A stretch of 22,170 nucleotides of DNA from a virus, in the IMG/VR virus record IMGVR_UViG_3300021376_000396, positions 1 through 22,170 of that record; one strand, written 5' to 3'. Position numbers and translations under genes: made by a program. The notes beneath the pieces were generated by a model. That model saw nothing but the letters and a program-made list of their open reading frames with translations. It was not told where the DNA came from and did no database searches. How positions within the stretch are numbered: the stretch's first letter is position 1; each line of letters begins with the position of its first letter. This document shows, piece by piece, positions 10,166 through 21,688 of the stretch.

Positions 10166-11092
10166 ATGACAGTAGCAGTAACAAGTTTGTCGGGTGCAAA
10201 TAGTTTCCAAGGATTTAGATCTTTGACGCAACGACATCCTCCTTCGTATAACAATCTATATTGGGTTAGATTTCGTAGGAAGCCTAATGTGCTGGCAGGA
10301 AGTGACTTTAATGCTTACTTCAACAATGGTGTTACAAGTGGCCCAGGTCACGATAAATCTAGATTGCTGACTTACTATGCAACTGATGTAACGGTTCCTA
10401 GCAGACAAATCACAACTGGAGAAATAAAATCTGTCGGATCACAATGGAAATATCCAACAGGTACTTCATTTAGTGAGATTAGTATTCAATTTATTGTTCC
10501 TAGAACTTATTTCACGAGGACTTTCTTCGAAAGATGGATGAACTACACCGCCTCAGATGCTGGTCAGTATGTATCATGGTATGATGATGCGGTATGCACA
10601 TACCTAGATATTTTTAAATATGAACGTGGTGGAGTTAAACCATATAACGTTGCAGCATATACAAGTGGTAGTCTTGCTGCTAGTACTGGATCACACCCAG
10701 GAACAGTAAGTTGGAATAGATGTATAGGATCATGGACTATGCAAAATGTATATCCATTTAATATTAGTAGTATGCAGTTACAATCTGGGCCTGCAAATTA
10801 TGCTACAATGGAAGTATCATTCTACTTTGAGAGATATCGCTTCTTTGTTCCTTCAGAGTCTTCGGCACTTCAATATGAGACGCCTGCAAGTACTGTAGGA
10901 TCAGCAGGTGTTAAGGCATCAACCGCTGCTCTCAATGCTTCTCTCGCAGCTGGACCTGCACCAACGACTGGAGGTACTCCTACGCTCATCACCACTGCCG
11001 GCCCTGGCGGTGCTGGCACTCCAACAGTTACGACTGTACCCCCTGCAGCATCAGCAGGAGCGACACCTTCAAAATCGGGTCCAGGAAAGTAG
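10166..11092 (+). CDS. 54: Baseplate tail tube initiator gp54
   Basis: This 308-residue protein is close in size to T4 gp54 (320), which with gp48 nucleates the tail tube. Segments FRSLTQRHPPSYNNLYWVRF, YYATDVTVPSRQITTGEIKS and FERWMNYTASDAGQYVSWYD give the look of a tail-tube (gp19-like) fold and fit cyanophage gp54 as I recall it. From about residue 235 the sequence turns into a low-complexity Ala/Pro/Thr/Gly tail (positions 10868-11089), probably flexible. There is no clear ribosome binding site. It lies opposite to gp4 across a shared late promoter region and is followed by gp26. Confidence 0.78.
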   Translation: MTVAVTSLSGANSFQGFRSLTQRHPPSYNNLYWVRFRRKPNVLAGSDFNAYFNNGVTSGPGHDKSRLLTYYATDVTVPSRQITTGEIKSVGSQWKYPTGTSFSEISIQFIVPRTYFTRTFFERWMNYTASDAGQYVSWYDDAVCTYLDIFKYERGGVKPYNVAAYTSGSLAASTGSHPGTVSWNRCIGSWTMQNVYPFNISSMQLQSGPANYATMEVSFYFERYRFFVPSESSALQYETPASTVGSAGVKASTAALNASLAAGPAPTTGGTPTLITTAGPGGAGTPTVTTVPPAASAGATPSKSGPGK

Positions 11093-11132: not shown

Positions 11133-11846
11133 ATGCCTTTACCTAAATTAGTGGTTCCTGAATATGAATTGGAATTGCCATCAACTAAAGAGACAGTTAA
11201 GTATCGCCCATTTCTAGTTAAGGAGGAAAAATTACTCCTCACTGCCATGCAATTGGGTGAAGAAAAAGATATGATGAATGCTGTTAAGACCATCATTAAA
11301 AATTGTACTAACTTAAAAACAAGAGTAGAAGAATTATCTACCTTTGATATTGAATATGTCTTTCTCAGAATTCGTTCTAAGTCTGTTGGTGAAGTCTCTA
11401 GAGTTGTAGTTACTTGTCCTGATGATGGTGAGACAACGACTGAAATTGATATTGATTTGGAAGAAATTCAAGTAGTTTTCCCAGAAGGACATACGACTAA
11501 AATTGAATTGACAGATGATATTGGTATTATTATGAAGTATCCTTCATTGGATATGTTTATCAAACTTAATTTCACTGGTGAAGATATTACTGTCGATAAC
11601 ATGTTTGAACTATCTGTATCTTGCATGGCTCAGATCTATCAAGGTGACGAAGTATATGATTGCAGAACATATTCCAAGAAAGAAGTTATGGAATTCCTTG
11701 AGGGTTTAAAAAGTAGTGAGTTTGCAAAAATTCAAAACTTTTTTACCACTATGCCTAAACTAGAGCATGAAATTGAAGTTGAAAACCCCAATACTGGAGT
11801 GGTAAGTAAAATTAAATTGGAAGGTCTGGGAAGTTTTTTCGCATAG
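11133..11846 (+). CDS. 26: Baseplate hub assembly protein gp26
   Basis: This 237-residue protein is recognised as the T4 gp26 family (208 residues in T4). The start MPLPKLVVPEYELELPST, followed by YRPFLVKEEKLLLTAMQ (from 11202), is typical, as are VVVTCPDDGE and IIMKYPSLDMF. T4 gp26 is needed for hub assembly and may act like a chaperone. GGAG precedes ATG 11133. The 3' end holds T_TTT_TTC (11834-11840) two codons before the TAG stop, and an open -1 frame continues to 12049. A minority of ribosomes could therefore make a roughly 305-residue gp26-extension fusion, like G and GT in lambda tail assembly. Confidence 0.9.
   Translation: MPLPKLVVPEYELELPSTKETVKYRPFLVKEEKLLLTAMQLGEEKDMMNAVKTIIKNCTNLKTRVEELSTFDIEYVFLRIRSKSVGEVSRVVVTCPDDGETTTEIDIDLEEIQVVFPEGHTTKIELTDDIGIIMKYPSLDMFIKLNFTGEDITVDNMFELSVSCMAQIYQGDEVYDCRTYSKKEVMEFLEGLKSSEFAKIQNFFTTMPKLEHEIEVENPNTGVVSKIKLEGLGSFFA
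11834..11840 (+). promoter_or_regulatory. Candidate -1 ribosomal frameshift site T_TTT_TTC
   Basis: In the gp26 frame the codons read AGT TTT TTC GCA TAG, so T_TTT_TTC is a canonical X_XXY_YYZ slippery heptamer. Slipping back one base moves translation into the frame that stays open to 12047. I see only weak downstream pairing (for example GCAT 11841-11844 with ATGC 11856-11859), and no clear stimulatory pseudoknot or internal ribosome binding site. Confidence 0.6.
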
Positions 11847-12049
11847 CCCTACTTCATGCTACATTAGAGAGTCATCTCGAAACAAACTTTGCGTTAATCC
11901 ATTATCATAAATGGTCTTATAATGATTTAGAAAATATGGTTCCATGGGAGAAGGCATACTATGTTGAGAAACTTCTTGGTCACCTAAAACAAGAAGAAGA
12001 AAGATATAAGAAACAACAACAAGCAGCCAAAGGTCAGCAGAGTCTCTAA
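11840..12049 (+). CDS. -1-frame extension of gp26 (gp51-position, tail-chaperone-like)
   Basis: After the slippery site, 69 codons run without a stop to TAA 12047-12049, which overlaps the next ATG (TAATG). The product begins RIALLHATLESHLETNFA, continues HYHKWSYNDLENMVPWEKAY, and ends in a charged helix rich in Gln, Lys and Glu. No ATG, GTG or TTG opens this frame before an internal ATG at 11936, which would give only 37 residues, lack a ribosome binding site and cut the conserved-looking part. The place between gp26 and the tape-measure-like gene matches T4 gene 51 and the lambda G-T junction. Homology to T4 gp51 (249 residues) cannot be checked here. Confidence 0.6.
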   Translation, partial: RIALLHATLESHLETNFALIHYHKWSYNDLENMVPWEKAYYVEKLLGHLKQEEERYKKQQQAAKGQQSL

Positions 12050-15000
12050 TGTCACGTATCAAACCCTATAAGTACGTTAATCCAAACATGATTACTGCTA
12101 TTAAAGCAAGTAATAAAATGGATACGTCTAAGGGTGGGGCAACCATTATTGCAGCAGGCAAAAAGATAACGGGTCCTCCAGATAAAAAGAAGACAACGGG
12201 ACAGGCCGAGGGATCTGCTGCTGTATCGATGGGTCGTGCAACTCTCCTAAGTTTTAATAGGATTGGTGGTTCGATAGAATCGCTTGGCCGAGTTCAGGCA
12301 CAGTTCATTAAAACATTAACTTCTGAGAAAGCATTAATTACTAAGCAAGCAGAACTTAGAAGAAGACAGCAACAAAGAGCTAGAGATCAGGCAGCAGAAG
12401 ATTCTCAAGAACGTGGTAAGTTAAAACCAGTTCGTGAAGAAACAAAAAAACAAGTTGAGAAAACTAAAGAAAAGGGATTCTTTACTCAACTTATGGAAAA
12501 AATCTTTGGACCATTTAAAGGTATTGTTGAGTTTGCCTTAAGAGCAATTATAACACAAGCGATTTTAGGATGGTTAGCAAATCCCAAAAATGGAGAAAAG
12601 ATCCAGGTATTTATTGATACTTTAAGTACAGTATTTAAGTTTATATTTAATATTGCATATAAATCAATTGATTTCTTCCTTACAGGAGTAGCAAATATTT
12701 TTGGTAATGGTGAAGCAAAGGGGTTTGATAGATTCAAGCAGGTCATGCTTGGACTTGGACAAGTCCTGATTGGAATTGCAGGATTCAAAGCCCTTTCATA
12801 TCTAAATCCATTCAATCTAGTTAAAGACTTAATAAAATTACTAGATTGGTTCAATGTGTTTGGAAACAAACCAATCCCTACCCCGCCTGCTGCACCAGCA
12901 GCAACTCCAGGCGGAGCGCCAACTCCATCTGCTAAACCAAGGGCAGCAGTACAAAAAATTGCATCTGAATATGGTGATGATGCTGCAAAGTATTATGATG
13001 ATTTAATTTCACGAGGTAAAAATCCAGTACAAGCACTTACTGCTGTAAGAAGTAAGTTTAAAAAACTTCCACCAAGACCAAAGGGTCCTCTTGGTCAAGC
13101 TGGTGATTTATTTGATACTTGGAAGAAGAAAGCGGCAGGTGGACTGGATAACCTGAAGTCTGGTGTCATGAAGGGATGGGATAATGTCAAGATGCTTGGC
13201 GGTAGTCTTACCAGAGGTCTCAGAGATAAACTGGCAGCATCAGGAAAATGGTTTGAAAAAGGAATTAGAGAAAAATTAACACCAATTGCTAAGAGTGCGT
13301 ATAATCTCCTTGAAAAGAAAGGAATAATATCTGCTGCAAAAAAAGCAGGTCAATCTGCTAAAAATGCTATTACAAAAATACCTGGTTATGATAAAGTGAT
13401 GAAAAAAGTCGCCAAGGAAGGTGGCGAGAAAATGCTTGGTAAGCTTGGTGGAAAAGCAATTCCAGTTATCGGTGGACTAGTAAACCTTTATTTTGCTTAT
13501 GATAGATTAAAATCTGGTGATAAGTCTGGTGCTGCCCTTGAAGCATTATCTGCTATCTTAGATTTGTCTGGACTATTTGGATTTGTTCCTGGTCCAATGA
13601 TCTCTATGGCATTGGATGCGTATCTATTTGGTAGAGACTTCTTCCCTGATGTAGTTAAGAAAGAAAACGAATTTCTTAATAATATCATTGGTGGAATCAT
13701 GGGTCCACTCAAGGCTATCCAAGATTCACTACCAAAGATTCCTCAACTAGAAACGGGTGGTGTCATTAACAAACCCACTCTTGCCTACTTGGGCGAAAAT
13801 GGACCAGAAGCAGTTGTTCCTCTTGGCCAAGGTGGTGGCGGTAATAAACAAACACAAGCAACACTCATGGCTGCAATGCTGGGATCCTTGGAGGGGATGG
13901 GGCCTGGTGCAGAGATTGCCAAACAATTATTAGGTAGTGATCTTAATAAGATCAAAGCAGAACTAGGATTGGGCATGGTTGGTGGTGTGGGCAGCGGAGA
14001 GTCTATTTCTAAAACGGTTGATAAAGTTGGTGGAATGGAGGATCCACTATCTCAACAAATTGGTACTAAAGCTCCCTCCTTTAGGAAAACTAATAAACCT
14101 GGTAATACACCAATGACCTTAAGAGGTCAATTAGCAAACGTATTAAGCGTATGGGCCTTATTAGCAGATTCAGACCTCAAGAAAGGTATGGGCGGCGGTG
14201 GCAAAGAAGGCGGTGGAGGAGGTGGAGGAAGCGGCAGCAGTTCTGGTTCTGGTGCAGCTGCTGGTAGCGGTGATGACTCCTCTACGGGTACTGCAAATAT
14301 TCAAATTTCAGGCAGTGGATATTTGGGTATCATGAAAGAAACTATGGATAAAGGTGGTATTAAAAATCCAAATGAAAGAGTCATGTTTATGGCTCAAGTT
14401 GGTCATGAATCGGGTGAAGGTAGATACATGGAAGAAATTGCTTCTGGGGCTGCATATGAAGGTAGAAGAGATTTAGGTAATACTCAACCTGGGGATGGAA
14501 AAAGATACAAAGGAAGAGGATATATTCAAATTACTGGACGTGCTAATTATAGAACTTATGGTCCTAAAGCAGGTGTTCCTGACGCAGAAAAACATCCAAA
14601 GAAACTAGCACAACCTGGTAATGCAGCAAAAGTTGCCTTAGCATATTGGCTGGCTAGAGTTAATAGAGGTGCTGCGGCCAAAGGTATGGACGGTATGAAT
14701 ACTGTGACTAAAAATATTAATGGTGGATTAAATGGACTTCAAGATAGAATAGCGAAATTTAAAAAATATGACAAGATGGACGCCATTAAAAAAATGGCTA
14801 AAGGTGGACAATTGTGGAAGAGTCTTCATGGTATTGATTCTAGTGAAACTAAGGCAGATTCACCACCCAAAAATGCAGCAAAGTCGGCTCCAGATAAACA
14901 ACCAGGAAAGTTTGCTTTAGGTGGTAATTATAAGAACGGCTATATACCAGCGTCTGCATTAGCACCAATCAGAGGTGGTGGTAAATTAAGAAAGGAAGTT

Positions 15001-15969
15001 GCACCACAATTTAATCAGATGTGGGATGATGCCAAGGCAGCAGGATATCCTTTAGGATTGTCTTCTTCTTATAGATCGTATGAGGATCAAGTGGCAACAT
15101 ATAAACACTACGGATCACCTAGAGCAGCAAAACCAGGATCTTCACCACACTCATGGGGATTGGCAGTCGATTTGAGTTGGCCCAGTACGAAAGGATATAT
15201 GTGGTTAAGAAAAAATTCTAAGAGATATGGTTTCAATCAAATACCTGGTTTAGAAACTAACAATCCAGGTGGATTTGAGGCTTGGCACTGGCAAGTTGGT
15301 ACTGGACGACCATCTGGTGCCAGTGTCACAAAGGTCGATAAGTCTGGGGCCTCAACTGACACAGATTCATCATCTGGTGGTGATAAATCAGATTCATCAT
15401 CTGGTGGTGATACTGGATCTGGGGGAGATTCTGATGCAAATATTCTTGCGGAAATGGAGAAATCATTTAATGCCCTAAATGAAGGTCTTTTTGGTATTGC
15501 ACCACCTAAACCAACACCTGCTCCTGCAGCAGGTGGAACTGGAACACCAGCAGCAAGTGGAACTGGAACACCAGCAGCAAAACCAGCAAAACCAGGAGCA
15601 CCAGCACCAAAACCAGCACCTACTACTAATCCCCCTGGTGCTCTAGCACCAGGTCAAAGACCAGATAAGGCATTGACTAAAGAACAGTTTGCCATTGCCA
15701 AGTTAGCAAGGGAGCAAGCAAAAGCGATGAAGCTTTCTGGTATGGATAGAGAGAAGTTTGTTGCACAAGCAGTGATGAGTGGCGGTTCCAATTTATCTCA
15801 AACATCACTTGATAATCAAGTCAGCAACACAGCCGCCGATGCTGCAGCATCTGCCCCAGCAATAGTTCCGTTTCCAATAAATAATGGTGGAACAGGTACG
15901 ACTATCGTCAGCGGTGGTGGAGGACAGGTAATGAGACCTGCTCAACCAATTTCAAATATATTTAAATAA
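12049..15969 (+). CDS. Large tape-measure-like tail protein with GH19 and M15 hydrolase domains
   Basis: This encodes 1306 residues. Residues about 60-150 are helical and charged. Hydrophobic helices follow (about 155-220 and 230-270). Ala/Pro linkers come next, then a tape-measure motif GGVINKPTLAYLGENGPEAV (about 570-590). Residues 757-912 form a GH19 chitinase/lysozyme-like domain with candidate catalytic E787 (GHESGEG) and GRGYIQITGRANY. Residues about 985-1090 form an M15 (VanY-type) peptidase with zinc ligands H1034 and D1041 (SPHSWGLAVD) and H1080 (AWHW). The C-terminus has Pro/Ala repeats. Its place after gp26 suggests the role of T4 gp29 (tape measure), with enzymes to open the cell wall. 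The start overlaps the upstream -1 frame (TAATG). The role is inferred; the domains are clear. Confidence 0.82.
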   Translation: MSRIKPYKYVNPNMITAIKASNKMDTSKGGATIIAAGKKITGPPDKKKTTGQAEGSAAVSMGRATLLSFNRIGGSIESLGRVQAQFIKTLTSEKALITKQAELRRRQQQRARDQAAEDSQERGKLKPVREETKKQVEKTKEKGFFTQLMEKIFGPFKGIVEFALRAIITQAILGWLANPKNGEKIQVFIDTLSTVFKFIFNIAYKSIDFFLTGVANIFGNGEAKGFDRFKQVMLGLGQVLIGIAGFKALSYLNPFNLVKDLIKLLDWFNVFGNKPIPTPPAAPAATPGGAPTPSAKPRAAVQKIASEYGDDAAKYYDDLISRGKNPVQALTAVRSKFKKLPPRPKGPLGQAGDLFDTWKKKAAGGLDNLKSGVMKGWDNVKMLGGSLTRGLRDKLAASGKWFEKGIREKLTPIAKSAYNLLEKKGIISAAKKAGQSAKNAITKIPGYDKVMKKVAKEGGEKMLGKLGGKAIPVIGGLVNLYFAYDRLKSGDKSGAALEALSAILDLSGLFGFVPGPMISMALDAYLFGRDFFPDVVKKENEFLNNIIGGIMGPLKAIQDSLPKIPQLETGGVINKPTLAYLGENGPEAVVPLGQGGGGNKQTQATLMAAMLGSLEGMGPGAEIAKQLLGSDLNKIKAELGLGMVGGVGSGESISKTVDKVGGMEDPLSQQIGTKAPSFRKTNKPGNTPMTLRGQLANVLSVWALLADSDLKKGMGGGGKEGGGGGGGSGSSSGSGAAAGSGDDSSTGTANIQISGSGYLGIMKETMDKGGIKNPNERVMFMAQVGHESGEGRYMEEIASGAAYEGRRDLGNTQPGDGKRYKGRGYIQITGRANYRTYGPKAGVPDAEKHPKKLAQPGNAAKVALAYWLARVNRGAAAKGMDGMNTVTKNINGGLNGLQDRIAKFKKYDKMDAIKKMAKGGQLWKSLHGIDSSETKADSPPKNAAKSAPDKQPGKFALGGNYKNGYIPASALAPIRGGGKLRKEVAPQFNQMWDDAKAAGYPLGLSSSYRSYEDQVATYKHYGSPRAAKPGSSPHSWGLAVDLSWPSTKGYMWLRKNSKRYGFNQIPGLETNNPGGFEAWHWQVGTGRPSGASVTKVDKSGASTDTDSSSGGDKSDSSSGGDTGSGGDSDANILAEMEKSFNALNEGLFGIAPPKPTPAPAAGGTGTPAASGTGTPAAKPAKPGAPAPKPAPTTNPPGALAPGQRPDKALTKEQFAIAKLAREQAKAMKLSGMDREKFVAQAVMSGGSNLSQTSLDNQVSNTAADAAASAPAIVPFPINNGGTGTTIVSGGGGQVMRPAQPISNIFK
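15362..15412 (+). repeat. 27-bp tandem repeat coding SSSGGD linker
   Basis: Two copies of a 24-nt identical segment start at 15362 and 15389, a period of 27. They encode DSSSGGD repeats, a flexible spacer after the M15 domain. This could be a length-variable site. Confidence 0.7.
15533..15580 (+). repeat. 24-bp perfect tandem repeat coding GTGTPAA linker
   Basis: Positions 15533-15556 and 15557-15580 are identical and adjacent, encoding a repeated Gly-Thr-Gly-Thr-Pro-Ala-Ala unit in the Pro/Ala-rich C-terminal linker. It is a likely slippage or recombination product. Confidence 0.75.
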
Positions 15970-16035: not shown

Positions 16036-19000
16036 ATGGCAGTCAACATCCCTACTTCTAAACCCAAGACCATCCTGTATAAGATGGTTACCGTGCCAAA
16101 GGTTAAAGTTACACCTCAGAACTCGGCTACGGTAACTTCTTATAAGGCTTTTACTTCGGGTTTGAATAGATTAGGGGCGACAATCAATTCAATGATTGTT
16201 TTGCAACAAAGGACTAATGCCGCCTTAACAGAATCGTTAAAACTTAAGGTAAAAGAGGCAGAAGACGCTAGAAAACAAGCAGAGAGATCTAAATTTGATA
16301 AGAAAGGTGGCGGCCTAGGCAAATTAGCAACAAATGTTGGTGTAATGGCAGCTTTTGTTGTCAAAGACTTTTTTGAAAGTATAGCGGGTTTATTTGGAGG
16401 AATTCTAAAGGCAGTTTTAGTACAAGGAATATTACAATGGTTAGCGAATCCTGCAAATAGGGAGAAATTAACTGTTATATGGAATGCGATGGTGGGATTC
16501 TTCAAATTCCTTTGGAATTTTATAAGTACCTCGGTAGGAATGACCCTCAGTGGTCTTTCCGACATGTTAAACTCAAATAAGAGTTTCTGGGAACGATTGA
16601 AGGGGTTTGGAACATTTTTAGTTGGTTTAGGCGGATTACTTTTAACATTTGCATTCCTAAAGAAACCAGCATTATTATTAGGTGGCGTTAAATTCGTTTT
16701 AAAAACAATTTGGGATTCTGTATCTGGTCTTATTTCACTGTTAGGGAAAAGAAAAGGTAAGTTATCTCAAACTCCAGGTGCTGCCCCTCGTGCCCCTGGT
16801 GGTAAACCTGGAAGTGCTCCTCCAGGTCCAGCAGCAGCACCTAGAGGAAGGGCCGGAGCCATCATGAAGGGTATTGGCGCTGTCTCTATGATTGCGGCTC
16901 CACTCGTTGTGGGTGGAATACTGGGGCAAGGTGAGAATGAATTCACGAAAGCTAGAGATGGGTCTGCTCCTACAGAGGGAGTTCCAGGACCAACTCCTGC
17001 TCCTGCTGTTGATAAGACTACTCCTCAAGCAAAAGATGGGGGTATTTTTACTAGACCAACACAAGCTATTATTGGTGAAGCAGGACCAGAAATGCGAGTA
17101 CCACTAATAAGTGGTGCTCAAAACGCCATGAATTATAAAGATAATGGTATTTTGCCTTTACCTGGTGGCGGCGGTGGTGCCCAACCAGATAGAAAACAAG
17201 CAGAAAATCTTTCAAAATTATATCAAGCACCATTTAAAGGTGTTGGTGCGGCCATTCTTGCCAATATGGGAGCAATAGCTCCTAATGTTCCAGGACCAGT
17301 TTTAAACACCCTTGTTGCTCCAATTGCAAACTCTTTTGGCGTACCTGCTGCTATTGTTAACAAATTAGCAGGTAAGAAAGATTCTGATGCAAAGAAGAAA
17401 AAGGGAGTAGGTTTTGGTCAAGGAAGACGATCATCTCAAGGTAAAAAATTTCAACGAAAAGGTGATAACTCTGTTCTAGGTCTCTTAACTGATATTGTTG
17501 GTGCTGGCCAAGTTATTAATAATAAACTTGGTGTGGGTGAAGATAATACTGCATCTGCTAGTAGTGGGTCAGCACCCGCTCCAACATCCAAACCTCCAGA
17601 TACCACTCCAGCAGAAGGAGCAAAAGAAGATTCTGCTGATGCAGGATCTGCATCTGCTGTTGAAGCTGCAAACAAAGGAAAAGGAAGTCAAGATCTAAGT
17701 AAAGGGGAAAGTAAAGGTGCCTCTGTAGCTACACAACAGGGGCAATCATCTGATCAAAGAAGAAAGATGGATTCTTCTAATCAGGCAGCAAATAGGAAAA
17801 AACTCCCATTCAAAGGCCCCGATGGAGTAACAAACTATGAGGTTCTACTGAACGTAACTAATGGAGATTATGAGGTATATAAACATAACGGACTTCTCGG
17901 ATGGGAGCGATTAAGAATCGATGAGGATAAAAATTCGTTACAGAAACAAAAAGCATTTAATCAAGTAAGAGCATTCTACATTAAACACGCTCAAAAGCAA
18001 GGATTAGCTTTAAATTATATTACAGAAGAAGATGTTAAGAGAAGACAAGAATTAGTTAAAAGATATGATGCCGAAGCAAAAGCAAAAGGAGTAGATAGTA
18101 CTGCACCACCAAGAAATAGAAGAGATAACGTGGGGAGAGCAGCTGGCGGATGGATTCAAGGTCCTCAATCTGGATATCCAGTTTCTTTGGATGGTGGTGG
18201 ATCAACTTCTTTCATAGGTCATGGTACAGAATGGGTTGGATTTAAAAAAGCGATGGGAGGAAAAAGTGGAACTGATGCTTTCGTGGTTCCCTTCGATACT
18301 CCAGCAACTAAAAATAATCCTGGACTAACTGGATCTAGAATGCGTCAAGCAAAATCTGGCGGATATGCTATGCCTAAATTTTCTGCTGGAGGAAAGGCAG
18401 AACAAGAGAAATTGGAAAAGAGTGAAAATTTTGCCAGCGGCGATGGAAGACCTAAGAAGAAGGCTTCTGCAGGTGGAGCAATTTTAGAAGGAGCTAAAAA
18501 AACAATTGGATATGGAAAAGGAGTTGGGGATCAATGTGCAAATAGTACTAGAGCCGCATTAAGAGCTGCTGGATCGACATTTGCAGGAAAAGTTACAAAA
18601 AAAGGAGATCTAGACGCTGAAGGAACAAAATATAATGGTCCTGGATTTGCTGCTTCTTTTGCAGGATCTGATATGGGTACTGTTATTAAATCTCCTGGTG
18701 CCCTAGAACCTGGAGATATTGTATTATGGAAAGGTGGAGGTGGTTATGGCCCTGGAGCAATAACTCATGTTGGAATTAAAGGGGAAGGATCATCGTTATA
18801 TCATCATGGTAGAAAGGATGGATTTAGAAAAACTGGTATGTATACTAGTTATGGTGCTCAATCATTTAAAGCAGGCATTAGACTGGGAGGTGCTGTAGGC
18901 GCGGTAGGTTCTGATCCTAGCAATCCAAACGCACCAGCAGATCCCGCTAATCCTAGCGATCCAAACGCAGCAGGGGGTGGTAGTGCGGATGTGCTTGCCG

Positions 19001-19599
19001 AGATGGAGAGATCGATGTCGGAGTTAAAGGTTATGATGGGTGTAAATCCAGCACCAGCAGCAGCAGAAGCACCTCCTACTGAAGTTTGGGTAAATAAGAA
19101 GACAGGAGCAATATCTCTCACGGATCCTTCAAAAACAAAAGGACTAAATCCTAAGGAGTTTGAGAAAAAATCAGTAAGCAAGTTAACTGAAAAGGAGAAG
19201 GCAACTTTTGATAAATTAATGAAGGACAAGAAAGCACAAACTGCTGCCCCAGCTCCAGCGCCCGCTCCTGGTGCTGGATATGGATCAATGACAGCAGAAA
19301 ATGTTGCTGCATCTGCTGCTGCATTTAAATCTGGGGCAAACGCCTCCGTACTTTCCCAGCAGACTACTGCTACTGCAGCGGCAAAAGATGGAGTGAAAGC
19401 CGCTGCTGCACAAGCAACTACAGTCGCGGCCGCTGGTGCTGCAGCTCAACTCTCCAATAAGGCAGCAGAGACTGGACGAAATGTTATGACAGCTCCGCCC
19501 GCGCCACCCATTGTTCTTCCATCTGATCCACCTGGAAAAGATATATGTTTATTTTGGCCTGGAACAGGTTTAATGAGTTTCAATGTAGGATTTAGGTAG
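16036..19599 (+). CDS. Second tape-measure-like tail protein with NlpC/P60-type peptidase domain
   Basis: This encodes 1187 residues. The N-terminus resembles that of the preceding gene: LNRLGATINSM against FNRIGGSIESL, and QGILQWLANPANREKL against QAILGWLANPKNGEKI. Hydrophobic helices lie at about 104-170 and 190-236. A tape-measure motif GGIFTRPTQAIIGEAGPEM is at about 334-352. A second Gly-rich unit GGWIQGPQSGYPVSLDGGG follows near 704. Residues about 820-955 look like an NlpC/P60 or CHAP cysteine peptidase, with C834 (DQCANSTRAAL) and H911 (ITHVGI) as candidate catalytic residues. A C-terminal VLAEMERSMSEL unit matches ILAEMEKSFNAL upstream. It is probably a virion protein that cuts peptidoglycan. 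No ribosome binding site is visible. Confidence 0.8.
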   Translation: MAVNIPTSKPKTILYKMVTVPKVKVTPQNSATVTSYKAFTSGLNRLGATINSMIVLQQRTNAALTESLKLKVKEAEDARKQAERSKFDKKGGGLGKLATNVGVMAAFVVKDFFESIAGLFGGILKAVLVQGILQWLANPANREKLTVIWNAMVGFFKFLWNFISTSVGMTLSGLSDMLNSNKSFWERLKGFGTFLVGLGGLLLTFAFLKKPALLLGGVKFVLKTIWDSVSGLISLLGKRKGKLSQTPGAAPRAPGGKPGSAPPGPAAAPRGRAGAIMKGIGAVSMIAAPLVVGGILGQGENEFTKARDGSAPTEGVPGPTPAPAVDKTTPQAKDGGIFTRPTQAIIGEAGPEMRVPLISGAQNAMNYKDNGILPLPGGGGGAQPDRKQAENLSKLYQAPFKGVGAAILANMGAIAPNVPGPVLNTLVAPIANSFGVPAAIVNKLAGKKDSDAKKKKGVGFGQGRRSSQGKKFQRKGDNSVLGLLTDIVGAGQVINNKLGVGEDNTASASSGSAPAPTSKPPDTTPAEGAKEDSADAGSASAVEAANKGKGSQDLSKGESKGASVATQQGQSSDQRRKMDSSNQAANRKKLPFKGPDGVTNYEVLLNVTNGDYEVYKHNGLLGWERLRIDEDKNSLQKQKAFNQVRAFYIKHAQKQGLALNYITEEDVKRRQELVKRYDAEAKAKGVDSTAPPRNRRDNVGRAAGGWIQGPQSGYPVSLDGGGSTSFIGHGTEWVGFKKAMGGKSGTDAFVVPFDTPATKNNPGLTGSRMRQAKSGGYAMPKFSAGGKAEQEKLEKSENFASGDGRPKKKASAGGAILEGAKKTIGYGKGVGDQCANSTRAALRAAGSTFAGKVTKKGDLDAEGTKYNGPGFAASFAGSDMGTVIKSPGALEPGDIVLWKGGGGYGPGAITHVGIKGEGSSLYHHGRKDGFRKTGMYTSYGAQSFKAGIRLGGAVGAVGSDPSNPNAPADPANPSDPNAAGGGSADVLAEMERSMSELKVMMGVNPAPAAAEAPPTEVWVNKKTGAISLTDPSKTKGLNPKEFEKKSVSKLTEKEKATFDKLMKDKKAQTAAPAPAPAPGAGYGSMTAENVAASAAAFKSGANASVLSQQTTATAAAKDGVKAAAAQATTVAAAGAAAQLSNKAAETGRNVMTAPPAPPIVLPSDPPGKDICLFWPGTGLMSFNVGFR

Positions 19600-21186: not shown

Positions 21187-21637
21187 AACGGAGTTCTTGA
21201 GTTGCCTGCTTGGTCGATGGTCAAACAAAGATCAAGCATTCAGTAACCCAACACGCTATTCTTGGATTCTCAGTTCTTGGGATGATGTCGGTGAAGGAAA
21301 AATTCTCTCTAAGCAGTGGTATCACTACATGGGAGAAGATAAACCCTACCGAGAAAAGATTAAAACTTTTATTGAAACAGAATCTGGAATTTTAGCTCAA
21401 ACTTGGGATATTGATGGTACTCGGAACAATTTATGTGATATGCATATCACATTATCCAAAGGGGTTTGGATCGGTAAGAATCTTGGAACGGAGTGCATCA
21501 TTAATGGTGCAACACTCCGTTCCGAGTTCGAACTACAACCAGGTCAATTTTTAACTCGTGATGCTGGTTTCATAGATGATAAATTAGTCTGGGGCAGCCT
21601 AGACTATTATCATTTCGGGCGATTAGCGCAGCGGTAG
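21182..21637 (+). CDS. cpeT: CpeT/CpcT-type phycobiliprotein lyase
   Basis: This encodes 151 residues from ATG 21182. An earlier in-frame ATG at 21140 lies inside CP12. CpeT-type lyases attach bilin chromophores to phycobiliproteins. The family pattern is visible in LLGRWSNKDQAFSNPTRYSW, SKQWYHYMGEDKPYREKI and the NLCDMHITL region, followed by GTECIINGATLRSEFEL. The size suits the short cyanophage form. This points to a host with phycoerythrin, mainly Synechococcus, but also seen for Prochlorococcus phages. The last 21 nt, encoding GRLAQR and the stop, are the first bases of tRNA-Val. A promoter -10 box covers the start codon. The lyase activity is inferred from the family. Confidence 0.88.
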   Translation: MITEFLSCLLGRWSNKDQAFSNPTRYSWILSSWDDVGEGKILSKQWYHYMGEDKPYREKIKTFIETESGILAQTWDIDGTRNNLCDMHITLSKGVWIGKNLGTECIINGATLRSEFELQPGQFLTRDAGFIDDKLVWGSLDYYHFGRLAQR

Positions 21638-21688
21638 CGCAGTTGCTTTACACGCAATTGGTCGGCGGTTCGAATCCGTCATCGCCCA
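21617..21688 (+). tRNA. tRNA-Val (anticodon TAC)
   Basis: The acceptor stem GGGCGAT (21617-21623) pairs with ATCGCCC (21681-21687), with discriminator A21688 and no encoded CCA. The anticodon stem GTTGC/GCAAT (21642-21646 and 21654-21658) encloses TTTACAC with anticodon TAC at 21649-21651, which reads GUA valine codons. The T-loop TTCGAAT is present. Its first 21 bases are also the end of the cpeT reading frame. Confidence 0.95.

Follow-up and report, generated by a model that had tools for sequence, protein, structure and literature searches.

A single tail assembly chaperone gene in this phage very probably gives rise to two isoforms through a programmed -1 ribosomal frameshift near its 3' end. 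The window, meaning the whole stretch of DNA that was analysed, is a fragment record of 22,170 bases, and among database sequences it is best matched by Synechococcus phage S-CREM1 (Kyanoviridae; 76.8% DNA identity). The gene encodes a homolog of gp26 that scored 238.6 bits against PF12322 (curated cut-off 24.5), which places it within this family, and it is the single PF12322 match across the whole 22-kb record. The locus is organized as follows.

10166..11092, plus strand: tail tube protein gene, upstream of gp26 (phrog_45, E=6e-40).
11133..11846, plus strand: gp26 homolog, short form (TAC-N-like), 237 aa (PF12322, E=7.9e-71; phrog_150, E=1.2e-78).
11819..11824, plus strand: GGAAGG, a Shine-Dalgarno (SD)-like putative stimulator 9 nt before the heptamer (predicted anti-SD duplex of -6.7 kcal/mol; SD-like pairing selected in relatives).
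11834..11840, plus strand: slippery heptamer T_TTT_TTC, read directly from the sequence (84/84 relatives; 0/88 other FF pairs).
11844..11846, plus strand: zero-frame TAG stop of the short form, read directly from the sequence.
11840..12049, plus strand: -1 frame extension, 69 codons and TAA (phrog_634, 'baseplate hub assembly catalyst', E=3.1e-21), startless before 11936 and conserved from its first codon.
12049..15969, plus strand: likely tape measure protein gene, 1306 aa (VanY, 2.7e-14; hydrophobic stretches; GENGPEAVVPL; placed after the chaperone locus).

The gp26 frame ends in AGT TTT TTC GCA TAG (11832-11846), preceded by GGA, and the T_TTT_TTC at 11834-11840 lies in the canonical X_XXY_YYZ phase, exactly as originally predicted. 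A slip here is predicted to join 236 gp26 codons to the 69 codons of the -1 frame, giving a long form of 305 aa with the junction ...GSFFRIALL.... The earliest ATG, GTG or TTG of the extension is the ATG at 11936, which lies at +92 past the gp26 stop and within the conserved domain, and the last A of the TAA (12047-12049) is also the first base of the ATG that opens the 1306-aa gene; the length of this frame, its missing start and its overlap with the next gene had all been claimed, and each was found in the sequence. In random sequence of the local composition, 68 open codons in a row would be expected with a probability of about 0.005.

In the mechanism that we propose, most ribosomes would stop at the TAG at 11844 and release the 237-aa short form, and a fraction would pause at the heptamer, aided by the SD-like element upstream. 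Both Phe tRNAs would then re-pair one base back, and translation of 69 more codons would complete the 305-aa long form. This isoform would be made at a low fixed proportion and would co-assemble with the short isoform; by analogy with lambda gpG/gpGT, the two would coat the tape measure protein, the product of the following gene, and bring in tail tube subunits. From lambda-type systems we infer that the ratio is fixed and that the proteins act as chaperones.

The gene order in the window is likely tail tube, chaperone and tape measure, as in frameshifted chaperone loci. The 1306-aa ORF contains a VanY-type peptidase and a GH19-like stretch, its GENGPEAVVPL motif is one that we take to be typical of tape measure proteins, and its Vibrio counterpart (ValKK3) matches the tape measure family phrog_58 (1.6e-6). 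The products of 12049-15969 and 16036-19599 are successive large proteins, each with a tape-measure-type GExGPE..VPL motif. The window also holds tRNA-Pro(tgg) at 81-154 and tRNA-Val(tac) at 21617-21688.

This arrangement resembles lambda gpG/gpGT, in which a short form, a -1 slip near the 3' end and a startless extension are likewise followed by the tape measure gene. The chaperone of the window differs in belonging to PF12322 and in its heptamer, which in lambda is G_GGA_AAG. A search of the PDB with the gp26 model ranked the HK97 chaperone 2OB9 (HK97 gp13) 4th, at a level that is not significant (prob 0.51, E=0.63), and a sequence search of the PDB with gp26 gave no matches; a fold search against viral models returned the same family, including T4-type gp26 and gp51 annotations. 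Other phages offer further parallels. A conserved -1 frameshift at a T-rich motif before the tape measure gene is described in the Vandenendeviridae/Andersonviridae (phage Adele; PMC12846349); a T-rich slippery motif ahead of this gene is common to the Adele locus and the window, although the Adele motif is reported as GTTTTT. In the passages that cite Vladimirov 2022, the Adele paper (PMC12846349) mentions poly-T slippery sites in T4-like chaperones, and the PRFect paper (PMC10885494) states that in some T4-like phages a short gene and a longer fused gene take the place of frameshifting. Going by these passages, this kind of locus is already known, and the window appears to be a well-supported member of it.

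To examine conservation, we compared 84 homologous loci, comprising the window, three named phages and 80 viral contigs, mostly at 48-60% protein identity. TTTTTTC lies exactly at -10 from the gp26 stop, followed by an open -1 frame, in 84/84 loci (one contig, L029, ends soon after), and it occurs in every one of the 45 clusters into which the loci fall at 70% amino acid identity of gp26. Among distinct loci, the codon before the Phe pair is AGT, TCT, GCT, AAT, GAT or GGT, so that the residue varies between Ser, Ala, Asn, Asp and Gly but the third base is always T. Of the informative codons in the fused frame, the three under strongest constraint include both slip-site Phe codons, and in-frame T6C is absent elsewhere among the 17,220 codons of these genes. 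Similarity of the extension in tblastn begins at the first post-slip codon, upstream of the annotated starts. It is scarcely credible that the heptamer arises only as a by-product of conservation of the C-terminal Phe-Phe of gp26, with the -1 frame unused. The FF pair is indeed nearly invariant, but it is encoded as TTT TTC after T in 82/82 cases, compared with 0/88 for the other FF pairs of the same genes; the fixed third-base T across five amino acids also argues against such a by-product, and protein-level conservation of the -1 frame contradicts it. Judged from sequence comparison, the conservation of the heptamer is more than chance, with a base-level constraint that is independent of the amino acid.

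The heptamer extends well beyond these loci. TTTTTTC was found in S-CRM01, Otagovirus, Stenotrophomonas, Acidovorax, Vibrio Schizotequatrovirus, Aeromonas Emmerichvirinae and a Nitratidesulfovibrio phage; TTTTTTT in Methylophilales, Agrobacterium and marine contigs; and TTTTTTG in Rhizobium. One of these three forms is also listed for Pseudomonas and sulfate-reducer phages. A scan with the Agrobacterium phage gp26 as query gave no matches. The extension of Nitratidesulfovibrio phage SRB7757 (L155, after 2154) has no ATG at all, making it a clean frameshift-only case, and in Aeromonas phage AS-szw (L158, 2504-2674) the extension frame is unannotated, with its first ATG at +89. Stenotrophomonas phage IME-SM1 (L123, near 3241) has one T fewer than L122, which makes both frames one ORF, through either a homopolymer sequencing error or a genuine fusion. 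The gp26 homologs of Ackermannviridae (L136-L154, e.g., L136 at ~3302) lack a canonical heptamer (GARATTTTCATTTAATTTTTGAAA or ...TAATG), and the -1 extension is conserved. In the Salmonella and Klebsiella Ackermannviridae there is no junction ATG: the site that is TAATG in Dickeya-type phages has ATT. These phages might therefore reinitiate at AUU or slip in an unusual way.

Sequences flanking the heptamer also appear to be under selection. Counting back four codons from the one that holds the first T of the heptamer, there is a Glu codon, which is GAG in 59/80 loci, compared with 30% elsewhere, and in the relatives this choice yields GAGGG ~9-10 nt upstream of the heptamer. Predicted pairing with the 16S tail (anti-SD) is stronger than in synonymous controls at this place only (z -1.09). 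GAG is enriched as well in loci without a near ATG (14/22, p=0.001, the relatives not being independent). Downstream, the 60-nt windows directly 3' of the heptamer in the relatives have a mean folding z of -2.15 against codon-preserving randomizations, with 67% below -1.5, compared with -0.4 to -0.7 at control offsets, and the stems frequently begin 5 nt 3' of the heptamer; since the relatives are not independent, these SD-like and folding statistics are not exact probabilities. RNAalifold detected no common structure among the relatives, in which the hairpins are strong and lineage-specific. In the window itself, no downstream hairpin was detected (z -0.07) with pairing sought up to 120 nt downstream, nor was a downstream fold found in its nearest relatives, S-CREM1 and L004 (z 0.25 and 0.44). 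We infer that slippage occurs in the window, where its efficiency may be low or depend on features other than a hairpin.

These elements recall the -1 signal of E. coli dnaX, which uses the heptamer A_AAA_AAG rather than T_TTT_TTC. An SD-like element ~10 nt upstream and a heptamer are common to dnaX and the window, whereas the dnaX-type stem-loop 5-8 nt past the heptamer was not detected in the window and is present in most relatives. The long form could in principle be made by RNA polymerase slipping on the T6 run, given that this run is homopolymeric and reaches T7 in some relatives. This is highly unlikely, because the codon phase is constant, the terminal base is usually C, and the SD-like element and hairpin spacing suit ribosomal slippage; moreover, six T residues are a short run for transcriptional slippage. 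The original reading of the junction as a programmed -1 frameshift is supported by the invariant heptamer, by the selected SD-like and hairpin signals (the latter in most relatives) and by conservation of the extension from the slip codon onward.

Public annotations imply a different arrangement, in which ribosomes terminating at the gp26 stop would reinitiate and translate the extension as a small gene of its own (gp51). Records do annotate a separate 'baseplate hub assembly catalyst', TAATG or TGATG overlaps occur in S-CRM01, Vibrio, Agrobacterium and Stenotrophomonas, and an ATG lies within 14 nt after the gp26 stop (at +5, +8 or +14) in 58/82 cyanophage-type loci. The original prediction was to be checked by asking whether relatives conserve the heptamer and the -1 frame but no start codon, and the outcome is mixed: the heptamer and frame are conserved throughout the 84 loci, but the lack of a start proved not to be general. 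Even so, we consider a separate gene very improbable. No ATG, GTG or TTG occurs up to +45 in 16/82 loci, among them the window, whose first start lies inside the conserved domain. In public records the gp51 start is placed at varying later ATGs, or the gene is omitted; the annotated starts disagree and remove conserved residues. Loci that have a near ATG and loci that lack one all retain the heptamer, and T4 has the same segment fused to a full gp26-like domain. A combination of the two, in which frameshifting produces the long chaperone and reinitiation in some relatives also produces a free extension peptide, is doubtful but deserves more weight. A +5 ATG accompanies an intact heptamer in 39/83 distinct loci, at a protein position occupied by Leu or Met, and a small free protein may therefore be translated from there as well. 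This combination does not extend to the window, where the +5 ATG is lacking, and the Met may be merely a tolerated residue.

The frameshift reading also bears on T4, in which 26 and 51 are divergently transcribed separate genes. The original prediction took separate genes to be the norm in T4-like phages; this is true of T4 and its close relatives, but the layout in most of the other sampled T4-like clades is that of a frameshift. Nor is T4 gp51 merely the small downstream frame, as it includes a whole gp26-like domain: both T4 gp26 (208 aa; 8.8e-64) and T4 gp51 (249 aa; 3.9e-52) match PF12322. The last 49 residues of T4 gp51 match phrog_634 and the end of phrog_150, and hhalign of the profile of T4-type gp51 ends against that of the frameshift extension gave 95% probability (E=3e-8). 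T4 gp26 terminates just past FF (EFFELL), and T4 gp51 runs on with homology to the extension. On this sequence evidence, T4 gp26 and gp51 are paralogs, gp26 corresponding to the short form and gp51 to the long form that ends in a homolog of the -1 frame. The make-up of gp51 suggests that the extension works attached to the gp26-like domain. Short and long PF12322 proteins would thus come from two divergent genes without frameshifting in T4, and from one gene with a frameshift in the window. In one isolate genome (L133, 2483-3258), a T4-type gp51 is divided over two frames.

In a tree of PF12322, the gp26-type, gp51-type and frameshift-type proteins separate, the tree being unrooted and too divergent to order events. 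We lean slightly toward the view that frameshifting, with a three-part signal of SD-like element, T_TTT_TTC and hairpin, is ancestral in T4-like phages, and that T4 and its close relatives swapped recoding for gene duplication, with gp26 as the short form and gp51 as a fixed long form. If true, recoding was replaced by two genes inside one family, the Straboviridae, which also includes the frameshift-type Schizotequatrovirus and Emmerichvirinae. If some phages obtain these two isoforms through recoding and T4 obtains them from duplicate genes, this would be a natural experiment in which the ratio requirement becomes directly testable. The separate 'gp51' of the cyanophage and T4-like records examined, with its inconsistent starts or missed altogether, would form the C-terminal end of a frameshifted chaperone, which calls for joining these annotations. 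T4 gp26 and gp51 are now annotated as baseplate hub proteins, and these data also offer a way to interpret them.
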